Assembly (NCBI RefSeq): GCF_013267195.1
Contig: NZ_CP053941.1
Span: 2,790,001 to 2,854,000 of the forward strand
Direction: 5' to 3'
Source: Halorubrum salinarum
GTDB lineage: Archaea; Halobacteriota; Halobacteria; Halobacteriales; Haloferacaceae
Length of the DNA stretch: 64,000 nucleotides
Under the pieces are notes generated by a model. That model searched no databases. It saw only the letters and a list, made by a program, of their open reading frames with translations, and was not told where the DNA came from. A program made the translations under genes and the position numbers. Positions 2,848-11,549 of the stretch are shown piece by piece; positions within the stretch are counted from its first letter, which is position 1, and every line of letters starts with the position of its first letter.

Positions 2848-4809
2848 ATGGACGACGTCGGAGTCGACGGGTGGCGGGCGTTCGGGGGTGCTGACGACGA
2901 CGCCGTCGAGCCGCCGGCGGAATTTCGCGATCGGGCCGCGGCGAGCGACCCCTCGGTGTACGAGCGGTTCGAGCGAGAGGGCCCCGAGGCGTGGCGCGAG
3001 GCGGCCGACCTCCTGACGTGGGACCGGGAGTACGACGCCGTCCTCGACGACTCCGAGCCGCCCTTCTACGAGTGGTTCACCGGCGGGAAGCTGAACGCGT
3101 CGGCGAACTGCGTCGACCGCCACCTCGACGACCGCCGGAACCAGCTCGCGATCCGCTGGTTCGGGAAGCGGGGCGAGCGGCGGTCGTACACCTACCTCGA
3201 CCTCCACCGCGAGGTGAACGCGCTCGCGGCCGGCCTCCGCGACCTCGGCGTCGAGGAGGACGACGTGGTCACGCTGTACCTGCCGATGATCCCGGAGCTC
3301 CCGATCGCGATGCTGGCGTGCGCGCGCATCGGCGCGCCGCACAACGTCGTCTTCGCGGGGCTGTCCGCGGAGGCGCTCGGGACGCGGATCGACGCCGCCG
3401 ACTCCGAGTACCTGATCACCTGCGACGGCTACTACCGCCGCGAGGACGCCTTCAACCAGAAGTCGAAGGCGGACAACGCCCGGATCCGCGCCGAGAGCGA
3501 GCTGTCGGCCGCGGTCGTGGTCGACCGCCTCGGCGACGAACTCGCCGTCTCGCTGGGCGACGACGAGCACGAGTACGACGCGCTGGTGGCGGCTCACGAC
3601 GGCGAGACGGTCGAGCCCGTCGCCCGCGACGCGACCGACCTGCTGTTCGTGATGTACACCTCGGGCACGACCGGGCGGCCGAAGGGGGTCGAGCACGCGA
3701 CGGGCGGGTACCTCGCGCACGTCGCGTGGACGACGCGGACGGTCCTGGACGTGCGGCCCGACGACACCTACTGGTGCGCGGCCGACATCGGCTGGATCAC
3801 GGGCCACTCCTACGGGGTGTACGGCCCCCTCGCGACCGGGACGACCACCGTGCTGTACGAGGGGTCGCCCGACTACCCGGACCGGGACCGCGTCTGGGAC
3901 CTGATCGAGCGCAACGCGGTGAGCGTCTTCTACACCTCGCCGACCGCGATCCGGTCGTTCATGAAGTGGGGCGCGGAGTACCCCGAGTCCCACGACCTCT
4001 CGTCGATCCGCCTGCTCGGCACGGTCGGCGAGTCGATCACGCCGAAGGCGTGGCGCTGGTACCGCGAGCACGTCGGCGGCGGGGACGCGCCGGTCGTCGA
4101 CACGTGGTGGCAGACCGAGACCGGCGCCATCGCGCTCGCCACGCTGCCCGGGGTCACGCCCATGAAGCCGGGGAAGGTCGGGCCGCCGCTGCCCGGGATC
4201 GACGCCCGCGTCGTCGACGAGGACGGCGACCCGGTCGACCCCGGCGAGTCGGGCTACCTCACCATCGCCTCGCCGTGGCCCGGCATGCTGCGCGGGCTCC
4301 GCGAGGGCGACGAGCGCTACCTGCGCGAGTACTGGCTGAACGGCGAGGACGGCTGGCGCTACCGCACCGGCGACGGCGCGACCGTCGACGAGGACGGCTA
4401 CGTCACGATCCTCGGGCGCGTCGACGACGTGATCAACGTCCGGGCGCAGCGGTTCAACACGGGCGAGCTCGAGGCCGCCATCGTCGACGCCGAGGGCGTG
4501 ACCGAGGCGGCGGTCGTCGGCGACGACGACGGCCGGATCGTCGCGTACGTGACGACGAAGAGCGGCGTCGAGCCCGGCGAGCGCCTGCGCGACGCCATCG
4601 CGGACCGGCTGGCGAGCGCCGTCGGCGACGTGGCCCGCCCCGACCGGATCGTGTTCACCCCGGAGCTTCCCAAGACGCGCTCCGGGAAGATCATGCGGCG
4701 GCTGCTGGAGGACATCGCCCGCGGCGAGGAGTTCGGCGACGTGAGCGCGCTCCGCAATCCCGAGGTCGTCGGCGAGATCGAGTCGACCGTCCGAGAAACG
4801 AGAAACTGA
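2848..4809 (+). CDS. acs: Acetyl-CoA synthetase, AMP-forming (paralogue 1)
   Basis: A 653-residue acyl-adenylate-forming enzyme that activates a short carboxylate with ATP and CoA. Visible motifs are the phosphate loop YTSGTTGRPKG near residue 270, DIGWITGHSYGVYGPL, the acetate-pocket DTWWQTETG motif, the hinge GRVDDVIN near 523, and the C-terminal PKTRSGKIMRR with the catalytic, acetylatable lysine at about K614. The ATG at 2848 is chosen over an in-frame TTG at 2833 because of the TATA spacing. Oddity: the highly conserved SGHR of the A8 region is RAQR (residues 532-535), followed by FNT in place of LGT, unlike paralogue 2. The pocket residues still predict a small acyl substrate, but CoA handling or regulation may differ. 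Confidence 0.93.
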   Translation: MDDVGVDGWRAFGGADDDAVEPPAEFRDRAAASDPSVYERFEREGPEAWREAADLLTWDREYDAVLDDSEPPFYEWFTGGKLNASANCVDRHLDDRRNQLAIRWFGKRGERRSYTYLDLHREVNALAAGLRDLGVEEDDVVTLYLPMIPELPIAMLACARIGAPHNVVFAGLSAEALGTRIDAADSEYLITCDGYYRREDAFNQKSKADNARIRAESELSAAVVVDRLGDELAVSLGDDEHEYDALVAAHDGETVEPVARDATDLLFVMYTSGTTGRPKGVEHATGGYLAHVAWTTRTVLDVRPDDTYWCAADIGWITGHSYGVYGPLATGTTTVLYEGSPDYPDRDRVWDLIERNAVSVFYTSPTAIRSFMKWGAEYPESHDLSSIRLLGTVGESITPKAWRWYREHVGGGDAPVVDTWWQTETGAIALATLPGVTPMKPGKVGPPLPGIDARVVDEDGDPVDPGESGYLTIASPWPGMLRGLREGDERYLREYWLNGEDGWRYRTGDGATVDEDGYVTILGRVDDVINVRAQRFNTGELEAAIVDAEGVTEAAVVGDDDGRIVAYVTTKSGVEPGERLRDAIADRLASAVGDVARPDRIVFTPELPKTRSGKIMRRLLEDIARGEEFGDVSALRNPEVVGEIESTVRETRN

Positions 4810-4814
4810 TATCA

Positions 4815-4829
4815 ATTTCTCTTTTCTCG
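4815..4829 (+). terminator. T-rich terminator after acs1
   Basis: A pyrimidine run containing TTTCTCTTTTCTC begins about 6 bases after the acs1 stop. Archaeal termination is driven by such T-rich stretches. There is no clear hairpin. Confidence 0.4.
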
Positions 4830-4877: not shown

Positions 4878-5117
4878 ATGGGAACGAACGTCTTCGCGGC
4901 GGACGCGATCCACGCCCGTCGCCGCGCGGTGGTCAAGACGCTGTGCTACCGGGCGCTGATGGTGACGATCACCGTCGCGGTCGCGTGGCTCGTCGTCGGC
5001 GACGTCGGTCAGGCGGCGAGCATCGGCTTCGTGACGAACGCGGTGAAGACGCTCACGTACTACGGCTACGAGCGCCTGTGGGACCACATCGCGTGGGGCG
5101 TGGGTCCGTCGGGCTGA
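4878..5117 (+). CDS. DUF2061 small membrane protein
   Basis: A 79-residue protein with the DUF2061 pattern: a basic N-terminal KTLCYRALMVTITVAVAWLV helix, then IGFVTNAVKTLTYYGYERLWDHI. Two hydrophobic segments (about residues 24-40 and 45-62) suggest a small inner-membrane protein. In several bacteria DUF2061 occurs in or near sulfate/cysteine genes, but no function is established. The ATG at 4878 is preferred to the GTG at 4839, which would add a segment unlike the family. It lies 68 bases after acs1 on the same strand and could be read through from it. Confidence 0.8.
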   Translation: MGTNVFAADAIHARRRAVVKTLCYRALMVTITVAVAWLVVGDVGQAASIGFVTNAVKTLTYYGYERLWDHIAWGVGPSG

Positions 5118-5276
5118 CCGGCGAGCGGCGTTTCGGTCATCGAGCGCGAGCCGAAACGGTCGGTCGGGTTCCCGACGCGACTAGAGCGGATCTCGCGACT
5201 GAGTGGACCGAACGACCTTCTGGAGCTCGGTATCCGGAACAGTTTTGTTTCGGCTGCTTGTTGAGTTCCGAAACGA

Positions 5277-7064
5277 ATGGTCGACGGTCTCGACGCGGAC
5301 GCCTACGACGCGCTCGTCACCGCCGCGGAGACGTATCGCGCGGCGCTCGTCGTCAGGCTGGCGGGCGAGGCCGGCCTCCGGACCGAAGAGATCACCCGCG
5401 TCGCCCCGCGACACCTGCGCGAGCCGGACTCGGTCGCCGGCGCGCGCCTCCTCGCGGTGCCCGCGGCCGACGGCGACGAGGGCGCGAGCGGGGGGTCGAC
5501 CGCGTCCGACGGCGAACCGATCGACCGCGAGACCGTGGTCCCGGCCTCGCTGGCCGCCGACCTCGACCGCTACGCGACGAGCGAGGGGCTCGCCGACGAC
5601 GAGCCGTACGTCGACGTCTCGCCGCGGCGCGTCCAGATGATCGTGAGCGAGACAGCGGCGCGGGCGGCCGGCCTAACCGACGGCGCGGTCGACGAGCGGG
5701 TCACCCCGAGCGCCCTCCGGAAGACGTTCGCCCGGCGCCAGCTCGTCGACCGCGGCGTCGACCCGCGGGCCGTCCGCGACGCCGGCGGCTGGGAGTCGCT
5801 CGGCACCCTCGACCCGTACCTCGACCCGCTCGACGGGGAGGCGCTCGCGGCCGCCATGGCCGGCGAGGGGGGTTCCGACGACGCGGCCGCGGAGCGGGGC
5901 GGAACGACCGCGCTCCCGGGGTTCGAGGCGCTCGCAGATCCGGGGTCGGCAGCCCCCGCCGCGGCCGTCGTCGAGGGGCTGGCCGACGCCGACCGCTGGG
6001 CCGAGGCGTGGGTCGTCCGCCGCGCGGTCGGCGGCGGGCGGGCGGACGTGACCGACGCGGCCGGCGTCGACCGCGAGGCGCTCGCGGACCGCGGCGTCGC
6101 GGCCGCCGGCCCGTGGCTGGATGCCGTCACAGATGGGGCGCCGGCGACGACCGACGGCCGCCAGGAGACCGACGGGCGGCCCGCGGTCGCGGTGCCGGCG
6201 GCCTTCGAGGGCGCGGTTCACGGCGCGCTCTGCGCCGTCGCGGCCGACGGCGACGCGGTCGACGAGTCGGAGCGCCGCGCGCTCGCCGCCCTCGGCGGCT
6301 GCCTCGGCCGCGCCATCACCGCGGAGCGGTGGCGGGAGCTGCTCCACTCCGACGCGGTCACCGAGGTCGAGTTCCACACCGGCGACGACGGGGCGTTCCT
6401 CGCCCGGGCGAGCGACCGCCTCGGCTGCCGGATCGAGCTGGCCTCGACGGTCGACGTCGACGAGGACGTGTCCCGCGCGTACCTCTCCGTCGAGGGGGCC
6501 CGCCCGCAGGACGTCGCGACGGTGGTCGAGGCGTCGCCGGGCGTCTCCGACTTCCGGGTGATCGAGACCCGAGAGGACGGCTGTTCGGCGTCGCTCCGGC
6601 TCGCGGACGGGTCGCTGGTCAGGGCGCTCGTCGACCACGGCGCGACCGTGCGCGACGCGTCCGCCGCCGAGGGGCGGGTCCGTGTCGTCGCGGACTTCCC
6701 AGAGGGGACGAACGTCCGCCCGGTCGCGGACGGGCTCCGCGACCGGTTCGCGGACGTCAGGCTCGCGAGCAAGGAGTCGGTCGCGCGCTCGCCGCGCACG
6801 GAGTCGGCGCTGCGGGACGGGGTCGCCGACCGCTTCACCGACCGCCAGTGGGCGGCGCTGTCGGCGGCGTACCACGGCGGCTACTTCGACTGGCCGCGCG
6901 GGAGCACGGCCGAGGAGGTGGCTGACGCGATGGGCGTCTCGTCGCCGACGTTCCACAACCACCTCCGGAAGGCCCAGCGGGCGCTCCTCGACGGCGTCTT
7001 CGAGGACGAGGCCGACCGGCCGACCCGGAGGGACGACGGGCGGGCGACCCCGTCCGGCGAGTGA
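5277..7064 (+). CDS. Bat-type HTH_10 transcriptional regulator with N-terminal tyrosine-recombinase-like domain
   Basis: A 595-residue protein in three parts. Residues 1-185 resemble the catalytic domain of tyrosine recombinases: GLRTEE with R35, SALRKTF with R148, GGWES with W172 and DPYL with Y181. The spacing R148-W172 (24) and W172-Y181 (9) matches the family, while the usual His of HxxR is Ser145. A middle region (about 250-350) looks like the GAF-type sensor of Bat proteins, followed by a Bat-specific alpha/beta region with VDVDEDVSRAYLSVEG. The C-terminal helix-turn-helix (about 519-575) has DRQWAALSAAYHGGYFDWPRG and VADAMGVSSPTFHNHLRKAQ, the HTH_10 signature. Its location between two acs genes suggests it controls acetate genes; this is inference. 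Confidence 0.85.
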   Translation: MVDGLDADAYDALVTAAETYRAALVVRLAGEAGLRTEEITRVAPRHLREPDSVAGARLLAVPAADGDEGASGGSTASDGEPIDRETVVPASLAADLDRYATSEGLADDEPYVDVSPRRVQMIVSETAARAAGLTDGAVDERVTPSALRKTFARRQLVDRGVDPRAVRDAGGWESLGTLDPYLDPLDGEALAAAMAGEGGSDDAAAERGGTTALPGFEALADPGSAAPAAAVVEGLADADRWAEAWVVRRAVGGGRADVTDAAGVDREALADRGVAAAGPWLDAVTDGAPATTDGRQETDGRPAVAVPAAFEGAVHGALCAVAADGDAVDESERRALAALGGCLGRAITAERWRELLHSDAVTEVEFHTGDDGAFLARASDRLGCRIELASTVDVDEDVSRAYLSVEGARPQDVATVVEASPGVSDFRVIETREDGCSASLRLADGSLVRALVDHGATVRDASAAEGRVRVVADFPEGTNVRPVADGLRDRFADVRLASKESVARSPRTESALRDGVADRFTDRQWAALSAAYHGGYFDWPRGSTAEEVADAMGVSSPTFHNHLRKAQRALLDGVFEDEADRPTRRDDGRATPSGE

Positions 7065-7136
7065 GCGGTCGGCGACCGGGTCGCGAGCGGGTTCGACGGT
7101 GCGAGCCCCGCGCTTCCGGGGCGGAATCCCTCACGA

Positions 7137-7141
7137 TTTTT
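7137..7141 (+). terminator. T-run terminator after the Bat-type regulator
   Basis: A TTTTT run with flanking AT bases lies about 75 bases after the regulator stop and just before the acs2 promoter. Confidence 0.35.
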
Positions 7142-7158
7142 CGTATTTAGCGTCAGCG

Positions 7159-7165
7159 TTTATAT
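7159..7165 (+). promoter_or_regulatory. TATA box of acs2
   Basis: TTTATAT is centred 32 bases before the acs2 ATG (7194), a strong haloarchaeal TATA match that predicts a very short or absent leader. Confidence 0.65.
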
Positions 7166-7193
7166 GCCGATATTGGTTGGATACGACCGTACC

Positions 7194-9188
7194 ATGACAG
7201 AGGGAGACGGCCAACTGGAAGCGAGATTAGCGGAGCAAGAGGTGTTCGAGCCGTCGGAGTCGTTCGTCGAGCAGGCGAACGTGTCCGACCCGGAGATATA
7301 CGAGGAGTTCGAGGAGAACTGGCCCGAGTGCTGGGAGACGGCCGCCGACCTGCTGGAATGGGAAACCGACTACGACCAGGTGCTCGACGACAGCAACCCG
7401 CCCTTCTACGAGTGGTTCACGGGCGGCGAGCTGAACGCGTCGGCGAACTGCCTCGACCGACACCTCGACGAGCGCGGCGACGAGGCCGCCATCGAGTGGG
7501 TCGGCGAGCCCGTCGACGAGGACGACCGCACGTACACGTACGAGGAACTCCACCGCGAGGTCAACGAGTTCGCGGCCGCCCTTCGGGAGCAGGGCGTCGA
7601 GGAGGACGACGTGGTCACGATGTACATGCCGATGATCCCGGAGCTGCCGATCGCGATGCTGGCGTGCGCGCGCATCGGCGCGCCCCACAGCGTCGTGTTC
7701 GCCGGGTTCTCGGCCGACGCGCTCGCGACGCGGATGAACGCCGCCGACTCGGAGTACCTCGTCACCTGCGACGGCTACTACCGCCGCGGCGACCCGCTCG
7801 ACCACCTCGACAAGGCGAACGAGGGGCTCGCGGCCGTCGAGCACGACACGACCACGGTCGTCGTCGACCGACTGGGGCCGAACGGCGACGGCTTCGGCCA
7901 CGACCTCGGCGACGACCAGGTCGACTACGACGACCTCGTGGCCGACCACGAGGGCGCCGAGGTCGAGCCGGTCACCCGCGACGCCGAGGACATGCTGTTC
8001 CTGATGTACACCTCGGGCACGACGGGGAAGCCGAAGGGCGTGAAACACACGACCGGCGGCTACCTCTCGTGGGTGTCGTGGACCTCGCAGTCCGTCCTCG
8101 ACATCAAGCCGGATGACACGTACTTCTGTTCGGCCGACATCGGCTGGATCACCGGCCACTCGTACATCGTCTACGGACCGTTAGCGCTCGGGACGACGAC
8201 GATGATGTACGAGGGCACGCCCGACCATCCGGAGCGCGACCGGCTCTGGGAGATCGTCGAAGAGTACGAGGCGACCCAGCTGTACACCGCGCCCACCGCG
8301 ATCCGCGCGTTCATGAAGTGGGGCGCTGAGTACCCGGACCGCCACGACCTCTCCTCGCTGCGCCTGCTCGGCACGGTCGGCGAGCCGATTAACCCGCGCG
8401 CGTGGAAGTGGTACTACCAGCACATCGGCGACGAGGAGTGCCCCGTCGTCGACACGTGGTGGCAGACCGAGACCGGCGGGATGATGGTGACGACGCTGCC
8501 CGGCGTCAAGGACATGAAGCCCGGCGCCGCGGGGCCGCCGCTGCCGGGGCTCGACGTCCAGATCCTCGACACGCTCGGCGACGAGGTAGAGCCCGGGAAG
8601 GCCGGCTACCTCACGGTACAGAAGCCGTGGCCCGGTATGCTCCGGACGCTGTACAACAACGACGAGCGCTACATCGAGGAGTACTGGGCGGAGTACTCCG
8701 ACACCGACAGCGACGACCCCGACGACTGGGTGTACTTCCCGGAGGACGGGGCGAAGATCGACGACGACGGCTACATCACCGTCCTCGGCCGCGTCGACGA
8801 CGTGCTCAACGTCTCCGGCCACCGGCTGGGGACGATGGAGATCGAGTCGGCGATCGTCGGCGTCGAGGGGGTCGCCGAGGCCGCGGTGGTCGGCGGCGAC
8901 CACGACATCAAAGGCGAGGCGGTGTACGCCTACGTGACCACGGAGGACGGGTACGAGGGCACCGACGAGCTCCGCGAGGCGATCGTCGCCGGCGTGGAGG
9001 ACGCCATCGGGCCGATCGCCCGCCCCGAGCAGGTCGTGTTCACGCCGGACCTGCCGAAGACCCGGTCCGGCAAGATCATGCGGCGCCTGCTGGAGAACAT
9101 CGCCGACGGCGAGGAGCTCGGCAACACCAGCACGCTTCGGAACCCCGAGATCGTCGAGGAGATCCAGAAGAAGGCCGACGCCGAGTAG
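7194..9188 (+). CDS. acs: Acetyl-CoA synthetase, AMP-forming (paralogue 2)
   Basis: A 664-residue canonical Acs. Motifs: phosphate loop YTSGTTGKPKG, DIGWITGHSYIVYGPL, DTWWQTETGGM, hinge GRVDDVLN, intact NVSGHRLGT at about 540-547, and PKTRSGKIMRR with the catalytic lysine at about K627. It converts acetate, ATP and CoA to acetyl-CoA, AMP and PPi in the cytosol. The ATG at 7194 is chosen over an upstream ATG at 7164 because it is the one fitting the TATA box. It is followed by the symporter genes, so this paralogue is probably the main acetate-growth enzyme. Confidence 0.95.
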   Translation: MTEGDGQLEARLAEQEVFEPSESFVEQANVSDPEIYEEFEENWPECWETAADLLEWETDYDQVLDDSNPPFYEWFTGGELNASANCLDRHLDERGDEAAIEWVGEPVDEDDRTYTYEELHREVNEFAAALREQGVEEDDVVTMYMPMIPELPIAMLACARIGAPHSVVFAGFSADALATRMNAADSEYLVTCDGYYRRGDPLDHLDKANEGLAAVEHDTTTVVVDRLGPNGDGFGHDLGDDQVDYDDLVADHEGAEVEPVTRDAEDMLFLMYTSGTTGKPKGVKHTTGGYLSWVSWTSQSVLDIKPDDTYFCSADIGWITGHSYIVYGPLALGTTTMMYEGTPDHPERDRLWEIVEEYEATQLYTAPTAIRAFMKWGAEYPDRHDLSSLRLLGTVGEPINPRAWKWYYQHIGDEECPVVDTWWQTETGGMMVTTLPGVKDMKPGAAGPPLPGLDVQILDTLGDEVEPGKAGYLTVQKPWPGMLRTLYNNDERYIEEYWAEYSDTDSDDPDDWVYFPEDGAKIDDDGYITVLGRVDDVLNVSGHRLGTMEIESAIVGVEGVAEAAVVGGDHDIKGEAVYAYVTTEDGYEGTDELREAIVAGVEDAIGPIARPEQVVFTPDLPKTRSGKIMRRLLENIADGEELGNTSTLRNPEIVEEIQKKADAE

Positions 9189-9294: not shown

Positions 9295-9741
9295 ATGACA
9301 GATAATACCTCACGCGACGGAGACGACGCGGCCATCGACGGCGGCGGCGCGACCGGCGACGCCGCCACCGACGGCGGCGTCGCGACGTCGGGTGCCGCAC
9401 AGGCGCACAGCAACACCGACTACCTCGGGGCGGAAGTGAACATCCTGAACCCGAGCACGCCGTACATGCGAGACCACCTCCGCATCGTCTGGACGGGGTT
9501 CGCGATCTGGGTCCTCGCGGTGTGGGGGCCGGTGACCCTGACGAACCTCGCGCCCGGCGTGATGACGCAGACGATGCCGATCTTGCAGTTCCCGCTCCAC
9601 TACTTCCTCGTCGCGTTCGGCGCGCCGACCAGCGCCCTCGTCCTGGCGTTCTGGTACTCGCGAAAGCGGGACGCGCTCGACGAGAAGTACGGCATCGAGC
9701 ACGATGACGTCGCGGCGACCGACGGAGGGATCGACGAATGA
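9295..9741 (+). CDS. Sodium/solute symporter small subunit (DUF4212)
   Basis: A 148-residue protein. The first 50 residues are low-complexity Asp/Gly/Ala. Then comes the DUF4212 core with RIVWTGFAIWVLAVWGPVTL and FPLHYFLVAFGAPTSALVLAFWYSRK, giving two transmembrane helices, and an acidic tail. DUF4212 proteins are the small partner of SSS-family transporters encoded next door. The stop overlaps the ATG of the large subunit by 4 bases, so translation is coupled. Co-location with acs2 and uspA supports acetate or another short carboxylate as cargo. Confidence 0.9.
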   Translation: MTDNTSRDGDDAAIDGGGATGDAATDGGVATSGAAQAHSNTDYLGAEVNILNPSTPYMRDHLRIVWTGFAIWVLAVWGPVTLTNLAPGVMTQTMPILQFPLHYFLVAFGAPTSALVLAFWYSRKRDALDEKYGIEHDDVAATDGGIDE

Positions 9742-11549
9742 CGGCGGGCTCGCTGCTCCTTCAGAGCGAACTACTCCCCGAGGCGCTCGACATCTCGTTC
9801 AAGATCGGGCCGGCGCTGCTCGTGATCGGGATGCTGGGGCTGTTCCTCACCATCGGGTTCGTCTTCCGCGTGGCCGACACCGACGACATGTGGGTCGCCG
9901 GCCGGTCCATCGGGAACGTCGAGAACGGGATGGCGATCGGCGCGAACTGGATGTCCGCGGCGTCGTACCTCGGGATGGCGGCGTCGATCGCGCTGGCCGG
10001 CTTCTACGGGCTGGTGTTCGTCGTCGGCTGGACGACGGGCTACTTCATCCTCCTCATCTTCCTCGCGGCGCAGCTGCGCCGGTTCGGGAAGTACACGGCG
10101 CCGGACTTCGTCGGCGATCGGTTCAACTCCGACACCGCGCGCGCCATCGCGGCGGTGACGACGTTCCTCATCGGCTTCGTCTACGCCATCGGGCAGGCGA
10201 AGGGGATGGCGCTGGTCGGCCTGTACATCTTCGGTAACTACGGCGGGCTCATCCCGGGCCTCGACGGGTACCAGGTGATGGTCGTCGCGATGATGGTCGT
10301 CACCGTCGGCTACCTGACGCTGTCCGGCATGCTGGGCGCCACGAAGAACCAGGCGGTCCAGTACGTCATCCTCATCCTCGCGTTCGTGGTCGGGCTGTTC
10401 GTCGTCGGCTACACGAACGGCTACTCCACGGTGCTGCCGCAGCTTGAGTACGGCGCGCTGATCAGCCAGCTCGGCAGCGAGTTCTCAGAGCCGTTCGCCG
10501 GGTCGAGCTACTACCTCTGGGTCGCGACGACGTTCTCTCTCATCGTCGGCACGTGCGGGCTCCCGCACGTGCTCGTCCGGTTCTACACGGTCGAGAGCGA
10601 GCGGACGGCCCGCTGGTCGACGGTCTGGGGGCTGTTCTTCATCTGTATCCTCTACTGGAGCGCGCCCGCGTTCGCGGCGTTCGGCACCGACCTCTACTCG
10701 CAGAACGTCGGCGCCACGTACGGCGACCCCGGCATGACGAGCGCGGCCAGCGAGGTCATCGTCGTGCTGGCGGCGCAGCTGTCCGGGCTGCCGGAGTGGT
10801 TCGTCGGCATCGTCGCGGCGGGCGGTATCGCCGCGGCCATCGCGACGGTCGCGGGGCTGTTCATCGCCGGCTCGTCGGCGATCAGCCACGATATCTACAC
10901 GAACATCATCAACGAGGACGCGACGCAGCGCCAGCAGATCCTCGTCGGCCGCCTCTCGATCGTCGCCCTAGGCGCGCTGACGACGCTGGCGGCGCTCAAC
11001 CCCGCCTCGTCGATCGCGGCGCTCGTGGGCTACGCGTTCTCGCTCGCCGGCTCCGTGCTGTTCCCGATGTTCTTCCTCGGCATGTGGTGGGAGAACGCCA
11101 ACCGGCAGGGCGCGCTCGCCGGGATGACGACCGGGCTGACGCTATGGGCGATCCCGATGATCAACCAGATCGTGCCGACGTACATCGGCTCGCTGGAGGC
11201 GCCGCTGTCGGCCGGGCTCGCGACGTGGATGCCCGCCATCGGCTCGGCGCTCATCACGCTCCCGGTCGTGTTCGTCGTCACCATCGTCGTCTCGATGGCC
11301 ACCGACGAGCCGTCGCTCGAGACGAAGCGGATCGTCCGGCAGTGTCACAGCCCCGAGCCGATGGGGCAACAGGAGACCGCGGAGGACGTCGTCGCCGCGG
11401 ACGGCGGCGAGGACGTGGCGACCGATGGCGGCCGCGCAGTGGACGACGCGGCCGCCGACGGTGGTCGCGCAGTGGACGACGCGGCCGCCGAGGGTGACCG
11501 CGCAGTGGACGACGCTGACCCTGACGACACCACGGAGGGGGAGCGGTGA
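9738..11549 (+). CDS. Sodium:solute symporter large subunit (SSS family, probable acetate permease)
   Basis: A 603-residue integral membrane protein with about 13 helices. Typical SSS features are NWMSAASYLGMAASIALAGFYG near residue 75, APDFVGDRFNSDTARAIAA and GTCGLPHVLVRFYTV, and an inner block IAAGGIAAAIATVAGLFIAGSSAISHD (shown split: IAAAIATVAGLF and GSSAISHD). It belongs with the DUF4212-coupled branch (VC_2705-like) close to ActP acetate permeases. The C-terminal 60 residues are a hydrophilic Asp/Gly tail that contains three copies of an 11-residue repeat. Coupled to the DUF4212 gene upstream and overlapping uspA by one base downstream. Confidence 0.9.
   Translation: MTAGSLLLQSELLPEALDISFKIGPALLVIGMLGLFLTIGFVFRVADTDDMWVAGRSIGNVENGMAIGANWMSAASYLGMAASIALAGFYGLVFVVGWTTGYFILLIFLAAQLRRFGKYTAPDFVGDRFNSDTARAIAAVTTFLIGFVYAIGQAKGMALVGLYIFGNYGGLIPGLDGYQVMVVAMMVVTVGYLTLSGMLGATKNQAVQYVILILAFVVGLFVVGYTNGYSTVLPQLEYGALISQLGSEFSEPFAGSSYYLWVATTFSLIVGTCGLPHVLVRFYTVESERTARWSTVWGLFFICILYWSAPAFAAFGTDLYSQNVGATYGDPGMTSAASEVIVVLAAQLSGLPEWFVGIVAAGGIAAAIATVAGLFIAGSSAISHDIYTNIINEDATQRQQILVGRLSIVALGALTTLAALNPASSIAALVGYAFSLAGSVLFPMFFLGMWWENANRQGALAGMTTGLTLWAIPMINQIVPTYIGSLEAPLSAGLATWMPAIGSALITLPVVFVVTIVVSMATDEPSLETKRIVRQCHSPEPMGQQETAEDVVAADGGEDVATDGGRAVDDAAADGGRAVDDAAAEGDRAVDDADPDDTTEGER
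11424..11522 (+). repeat. Three tandem 33-bp units inside the symporter C-terminus
   Basis: Units start at 11424, 11457 and 11490. Each encodes a variant of DGGRAVDDAAA, and the core CGCGCAGTGGACGACGC is identical in all three. The repeats are in frame and encode a disordered acidic tail; copy number could vary by slippage. Confidence 0.85.

Follow-up and report, generated by a model that had tools for sequence, protein, structure and literature searches.

A tyrosine-recombinase-type domain in a Bat-type regulator of the haloarchaeal acs locus and its probable use as a DNA-binding module

Genes and features of the acs locus

The window, which is the whole stretch of 64,000 nucleotides of Halorubrum salinarum DNA analysed here, contains a gene for a regulator, TR-Bat, in which a tyrosine-recombinase-type domain is followed by a sensor region and a C-terminal DNA-binding domain (Table 1). 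The two genes enclosing it both encode AMP-forming acetyl-CoA synthetases according to Pfam, in agreement with an earlier note on this DNA that had placed the regulator between two acs genes. Apart from the small DUF2061 gene, the gene order is that of plasmids of Haloferax alexandrinus, Haloferax larsenii and Halocatena marina, where acs, regulator, acs, a DUF4212 gene and a sodium:solute symporter gene follow one another. The counterpart of the last gene in Halocatena bears the annotation 'cation acetate symporter'. In other genera acs1 and the regulator usually lie closer together, and the DUF2061 gene is not required.

Table 1. Genes, protein domains and candidate control elements of the locus, in window coordinates
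Feature	Position	Strand	Remarks
acs1, AMP-forming acetyl-CoA synthetase	2848..4809	+	Pfam ACAS_N, AMP-binding, AMP-binding_C
DUF2061 small membrane protein gene	4878..5117	+	PF09834, 58.7 bits; between acs1 and the regulator
IR1, GTTTCGG-N14-CCGAAAC	5130..5157		28 bp; candidate recombinase-type inverted repeat
IR2, GTTTCGG-N14-CCGAAAC	5247..5274		Ends 2-3 bp before the ATG; overlaps the core promoter region
TR-Bat regulator ORF	5277..7064	+	595 aa; tyrosine-recombinase domain, GAF, BAT, HTH_10
Tyrosine-recombinase catalytic-domain fold	5277..5876	+	Residues 1-200; R35, S145, R148, W172, Y181
Helix-J residues R117, R118, Q120, M121	in 5277..5876	+	Recombinase domain of TR-Bat
GAF sensor domain	5967..6317	+	Residues 231-347; PF13185, E 1e-4, 22.6 bits, below the curated GAF_2 cut-off of 28.6
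BAT domain	6351..6815	+	Residues 359-513; PF15915, 137.6 bits
HTH_10 DNA-binding domain	6834..6989	+	Residues 520-571; PF04967, 70.4 bits
HTH_10 recognition helix SSPTFHNHLRKAQ			Within residues 520-571 of TR-Bat
acs2 upstream activator-like box CACGATTTTTCGTATTTAGCG	7132..7152	+	Candidate site, from promoter comparison
acs2 TATA element TTTATATG	7159..7166	+	Fixed distance from the box
acs2, AMP-forming acetyl-CoA synthetase	7194..9188	+	Pfam; adjoins the regulator in 79/79 loci
DUF4212 protein, symporter partner gene	9295..9741	+	PF13937
Sodium:solute (acetate-type) symporter	9738..11549	+	PF00474

The order acs, regulator, acs on the same strand is found in all 79 loci with both flanks covered (the remaining loci end before one flank). 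This count and the other locus counts given below overstate independence, and the p-values exaggerate the surprise, because the genomes share ancestry and several of the loci are nearly identical; some loci from the two collections belong to the same species. None of the 79 is inverted or rearranged. One locus was left unresolved by the automated count, yet both of its acs genes are visible. A search with the recombinase domain gave matches in 305 of 391 Halobacteria genomes, solo proteins included, and among the best-scoring matches listed nearly all lie in open frames of about 530-900 aa from many families of Halobacteria. TR-Bat occurs class-wide in the haloarchaea. In Haloferax mediterranei the acs genes HFX_5129 and HFX_5131, which belong to a single megaplasmid cluster, are induced by acetate (PMC11784441), and the gene between them is presumably the TR-Bat regulator, judging from other Haloferax records.

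Several further features of the locus were recorded. A GC-rich imperfect repeat array with units like GGGG-TTCGGTCCCCC lies directly 5' of acs1, at about 2719-2815. The earlier note had proposed this array as a target of the regulator; the array exists, but the other Halorubrum species compared do not show it ahead of acs1, and it was rejected as a target on this ground. The near-perfect 22-bp palindrome GAGAAACTGATATCAATTTCTC (4800-4821) overlaps the acs1 stop and is followed by TTTTCTC. It may act as a terminator or bind a protein, and was set aside as a conserved element, being only loosely kept in close relatives. In Halorubrum kocurii the TR-Bat frame is broken, by a frameshift or a sequencing error, into a frame of 403 aa with the remainder in another frame; the two acs genes are still present, as is the acs2 box. 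In one group of genomes without TR-Bat, a separate Bat-type regulator of 558-591 aa (GAF-BAT-HTH_10) lies on the strand of acs2, 2.6-4.5 kb upstream of it.

The recombinase-type domain and its catalytic residues

The following observations indicate that the N-terminal part of TR-Bat is a tyrosine-recombinase catalytic-domain fold, and that the similarity, as judged from profiles and predicted structure, is beyond chance. The window protein matches PF00589 (Phage_integrase) with 34.0 bits and E 3e-8 (cut-off 27.1). A profile made from the first 208 residues of 57 relatives finds in the PDB the XerC/A-like structure 4a8e (E 1.5e-20) and XerA 5hxy (2e-12), and then an integron integrase, XerD and Cre. 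The AlphaFold model of the N-terminal domain, computed with the family alignment as input, has a pLDDT of 92.4, and Foldseek relates it to XerA (E 3e-7), XerH, Cre and the Tn1549 integrase, so that the recombinase fold is recovered by the structure prediction which the earlier note had proposed as a check. The full-length model (pLDDT 85.9) has a flexible linker past residue 195. By both Pfam and the model the protein begins with the catalytic domain, residue 1 of the model lying at the onset of its first helix, and a core-binding domain is therefore lacking.

The earlier note had read the frame as a recombinase-type N-terminus ahead of a GAF-BAT-HTH_10 regulator, and this reading, like its remark on the missing core-binding domain, is borne out. 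Across TR-Bat homologues, Pfam finds Phage_integrase in 39, BAT and HTH_10 in all and GAF in 21 of 43 proteins. In the window protein the recombinase, BAT and HTH_10 profiles score above their cut-offs and GAF_2 is weak; BAT followed by a C-terminal HTH_10 is the make-up of a Bat-type regulator. One family has longer homologues, of 750-900 aa, that can have an extra PAS domain behind the recombinase domain and ahead of GAF; the make-up of the sensor part therefore varies. The HTH_10 recognition helix is near-invariant class-wide and differs from those of the 19 HTH_10 paralogues in the window genome.

The catalytic residues were also listed correctly beforehand: R35, R148, W172 and Y181 are present with spacings of 24 (R148-W172) and 9 (W172-Y181), and the His of the HxxR motif is replaced by Ser145. 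The loss goes beyond that list, the Lys of the catalytic β-hairpin also being missing from the window protein. Conservation of both Arg and of Tyr181 in homologues had been named as a sign of activity. Among 88 non-identical fusions the Arg residues are indeed kept (Arg-II, R148, in 88/88; Arg-I, R35, in 81/86), as is W172 (87/88). Tyr181 is retained in 70 and repeatedly lost in 18 of the 88, being replaced by F (8), H (4), L (3), S, A or D. The catalytic His is present in just three of the 88 and the hairpin Lys is essentially absent, so that the full set R-K-H-R-(H/W)-Y of active recombinases is not found in the fused family, for all that it has the catalytic fold. The combination of Arg-I, Arg-II, Trp and Tyr is retained in full in 35 of 52 distant homologues. 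A tree built solely from the BAT-HTH part requires a minimum of 10 changes of the Tyr state and five of Arg-I. In Haloferax alexandrinus Arg-I has become Thr and Tyr has become Leu; in Haloferax larsenii the replacements are Gln and Phe. The best-kept columns of the fused domain are R117, R118, R84, R148, G33, E38, W172 and M121, and Tyr ranks about 51st among 173.

The sequences thus make strand-transfer catalysis by the TR-Bat domain unlikely, because His and Lys are gone, Tyr has been lost repeatedly, and a Haloferax protein that has neither Arg-I nor Tyr keeps the gene order and the sites described below. Rare or modified chemistry is formally still conceivable, as R148 and W172 hardly vary and 80% of the fusions still have Tyr.

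The closest relatives of the TR-Bat domain (32-36% identity) are a family of solo, single-domain recombinases, mostly of 200-220 aa, which likewise have no core-binding domain and which, in contrast to TR-Bat, carry the full R, K, H, R, W, Y set. Arg-I, Lys, Trp and Tyr are kept in all 16 solo haloarchaeal relatives of 200-240 aa, and His in all 16 by reading of the alignment or in 15 by a narrower automated pattern. As these catalytically complete proteins also lack a core-binding domain, its absence does not set the fused family apart. One tree branch with a support of 99 splits fused from solo domains, and the solo proteins differ from the fusions at R118, Q120 and M121. No acs genes were seen next to the solo genes. 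Several copies occur per genome, some with in-frame stops, and within the 1.5 kb around them that was examined many have TTGTTATA/TAACAA-like sequences directly 5' of the start codon. The solo proteins are likely mobile-element enzymes.

Candidate control elements in the acs2 and regulator promoters

Two new cis elements are found at the locus: a box at the acs2 promoter, and inverted repeats in the promoter of the regulator gene itself. The box lies just 5' of the acs2 TATA box, as an upstream activator site of a Bat-type regulator would, and takes the form TTTtGTAcAnYTAGA; the consensus beyond Halorubrum is TTTtG.AcA.cTAGAt, and within Halorubrum the box reads CACGATTTTTCGTATTTAGCG. The element YTAG-N7..9-[TCA]TTA is present in 66 of 67 acs2 promoters, where shuffled sequences would give 2.0, and in three of 58 acs1 promoters. 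The remaining acs2 locus has an ATTAG variant with longer spacing. In the window genome the box is the sole perfect match, and the perfect matches in other genomes are located at acs2. Twenty genomes that have no TR-Bat, and in which acs2 stands without a neighbouring acs gene, lack the box at acs2; there are three loose pattern matches among them, of which at most one is box-like. The co-occurrence of box and regulator has a Fisher p of about 2e-14 with one loose match counted. Within one genus, the genome with the regulator has TTTTGTATAATTAGCACCCCCGTTTATTA, whereas the genome without it has TTTTATCATTAACACCCCCGTTTATTA.

The inverted repeats lie between acs1 and the regulator gene. The perfect sequence TTTCGG-N14-CCGAAA occurs only twice in the window genome, at 5131-5156 and 5248-5273, both in this promoter and with centres 117 bp apart. 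Across the loci, TTTCG/CGAAA repeats in this interval have a gap of 15 in 24 cases and of 16 in 61, with no other gap found more than six times. With one mismatch allowed, 75 of 77 loci contain at least one site and 59 contain two, where shuffles give 0.98 and 0.02. The second site ends a few bases 5' of the start codon, and its left arm takes the expected place of the TATA box. TTTCG-N15/16-CGAAA repeats are absent from the acs1 and acs2 promoters. A count over 12 further genomes gives 22 matches, of which 15 fall at the TR-Bat locus, one of them within the regulator gene; the background elsewhere is about 0.6 per genome and is equal with or without TR-Bat. Genomes without the gene have no pairs, only background matches. 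Haloferax alexandrinus retains the locus, the acs2 box and both repeats, and the Haloferax larsenii and Halocatena versions also keep the sites.

The centre distances of the pairs cluster at about 96, 107, 117 and 128 bp. A scan of periods from 6 to 16 bp gives 10.5 bp as the best, with R 0.64 and p ~5e-8 computed on partly collapsed data; on unique distances alone p is ~1e-4. Two helically phased inverted-repeat sites, as expected of a looping operator, are thus present in the 59 loci with two sites.

A relation between these repeats and the recombinase domain is suggested by a comparison with Cre. R117 and R118 are present in 88 of 88 fusions, Q120 in 84 and M121 in 87, and in an hhalign alignment R117 falls on Cre R259, with Q120 on E262. 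These two Cre residues are helix-J residues at the DNA, and R259 reads base pair 10 of the half-site (PMC6486577; PMC7438526). The TR-Bat residue at the place of this reader, R117, is thus invariant in the fusions. In repeats with the 16-bp gap, C9, G10, A11 and A12, counted from the dyad, are the bases of the P1 lox half-site. This agreement over four bases may be a coincidence. The lox register and the equivalence of R117 with Cre R259 are the grounds for supposing that the recombinase domain could bind the repeats and form a loop.

A possible mechanism and its relation to known systems

By combining these observations it is possible to outline how the regulator might work. The recombinase domain, kin of the small single-domain haloarchaeal enzymes, would have lost its strand-transfer chemistry and stayed as a DNA binder. 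The GAF (or PAS-GAF) domain would sense an acetate- or energy-state signal. Upon this signal HTH_10 would bind the acs2 box and recruit the transcription machinery like an activator of the Bat family, whose function is described in PMC1447603 and PMC3184054. The recombinase domains would bind the inverted repeats as dimers, each arm being taken by a single domain, and R117 and Q120 would act in place of Cre R259 and E262. The two occupied sites would then come together in the manner of a recombination synapse, with no DNA being cut. The loop so formed, about 95-130 bp long, would shut down or tune the regulator's own transcription, since IR2 is placed over the stretch from TATA to start. The pairing of domains with sites, the loop and the ligand are putative, as is the direction of control, which is suggested by the site positions.

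In its general form, that a retired recombinase domain has become a DNA-binding module of a dedicated acetate-locus transcription factor, with looping autoregulation and with HTH_10 acting on acs2, this account is judged probable from the sequences. The specific form, a synapse without recombination in which four domains pair the two loxP-register sites to set the level of TR-Bat while HTH_10 drives acs2, is put forward more tentatively. The earlier note had offered two readings, a DNA-binding remnant and a still active strand transferase used as a switch. The first is favoured by the predicted fold, the loss of His, Lys and often Tyr, the near-invariant helix J and the repeats in the regulator's own promoter.

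The second, in which recombination between IR1 and IR2 or topoisomerase-like nicking would switch regulator or acs expression, did not hold up and appears very improbable. It could draw on the two recombinase-type sites about 117 bp apart, on the four catalytic residues found in the window protein and in 35 of the 52 distant homologues, and on the replacement of His by Lys or Tyr in some archaeal recombinases (PMC8371274). Against this stand the near-complete absence of His and Lys, the many Tyr and Arg-I changes on the tree, and Haloferax alexandrinus with its intact locus, box and repeats. Moreover, the orientation of acs, regulator and acs never varies, and the spacers of IR1 and IR2 differ in sequence, so that strand exchange would give mismatches.

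The inverted repeats could instead be bound by HTH_10 or by an unrelated factor, and the recombinase domain would then be vestigial or purely structural, serving for dimerization, while HTH_10 reads both repeats and box or another regulator reads the repeats. HTH_10 is a known DNA-binding domain with a near-invariant recognition helix in this family, and the arm centres, 20-21 bp or about two helical turns apart, also suit an ordinary dimeric regulator, as they do many others. The solo relatives have no TTTCG-N15/16-CGAAA repeats nearby (56 kb around 16 genes), for which reason an operator common to TR-Bat and the solo recombinases was rejected, though the solo proteins differ at the helix-J positions mentioned above. 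This explanation is nevertheless rather unlikely: the box and the repeats differ in sequence and symmetry, so that a single HTH would have to recognize the two of them, the DNA-reading helix J is among the near-invariant recombinase columns, as are Arg-II and R84, and the register and helically phased pairing of the repeats match recombinase sites. Many haloarchaeal repressors have inverted operators, and the TR-Bat gene is often close behind acs1. TR-Bat might thus be an ordinary Bat-type activator of acs2, and a separate metabolic regulator encoded elsewhere would use the repeats as its operator to control an acs1-regulator operon. This is improbable, as the perfect site occurs at one promoter only in the window genome, where a global regulator would have more targets, and as pairs do not occur in genomes without TR-Bat.

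If the DNA-binding reading is correct, TR-Bat would be a clear prokaryotic case of a recombinase domain that has outlived its catalysis and been kept for DNA binding and synapsis, separating these from strand exchange by a natural experiment. The activation of acetate holds a central place in the carbon use of haloarchaea, and with a regulator that is syntenic across the class and has precise candidate sites, control of the acetate locus becomes directly testable. No account of the function of TR-Bat was found in the openly accessible literature, and no regulator of the acs locus is named there.

The architecture itself is not new. The archaeal tyrosine-recombinase family fam30-04 was described as Phage_integrase + BAT + HTH_10, in some members with GAF_2 (Badel et al. 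2021, PMC8371274), and TR-Bat, with the identical domain string, is a member of it. That account, in the part of the publication considered here, covers domain content and does not mention linkage to acs, residue loss, DNA sites or function. The Bat and DmsR-type HTH_10 regulators of Halobacterium likewise have a C-terminal BAT/HTH_10 part and GAF/PAS sensors; TR-Bat differs from them by the recombinase domain ahead of the sensors and by its apparent targets, the acs genes and its own promoter. With XerA, XerC, XerD and Cre it shares the fold, the positions of Arg-I, Arg-II, Trp and Tyr, the helix-J contacts and the loxP-like geometry of the sites. Unlike them, it has no core-binding domain, His or hairpin Lys, has lost Tyr recurrently, and is fused to a regulator that is fixed in one gene neighbourhood. 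The Crypton-derived DUF3504 and GCR1/Ndc10-type proteins of eukaryotes are transcription regulators with a domesticated tyrosine-recombinase domain whose catalytic tetrad is lost (PMC3212892). A synapse without recombination in TR-Bat would, if true, be a prokaryotic counterpart of this domestication, with both target sites known. TR-Bat represents an independent archaeal event in which the second Arg is kept, and, in contrast to the Crypton-derived proteins, its candidate target sites and regulated genes can be named.
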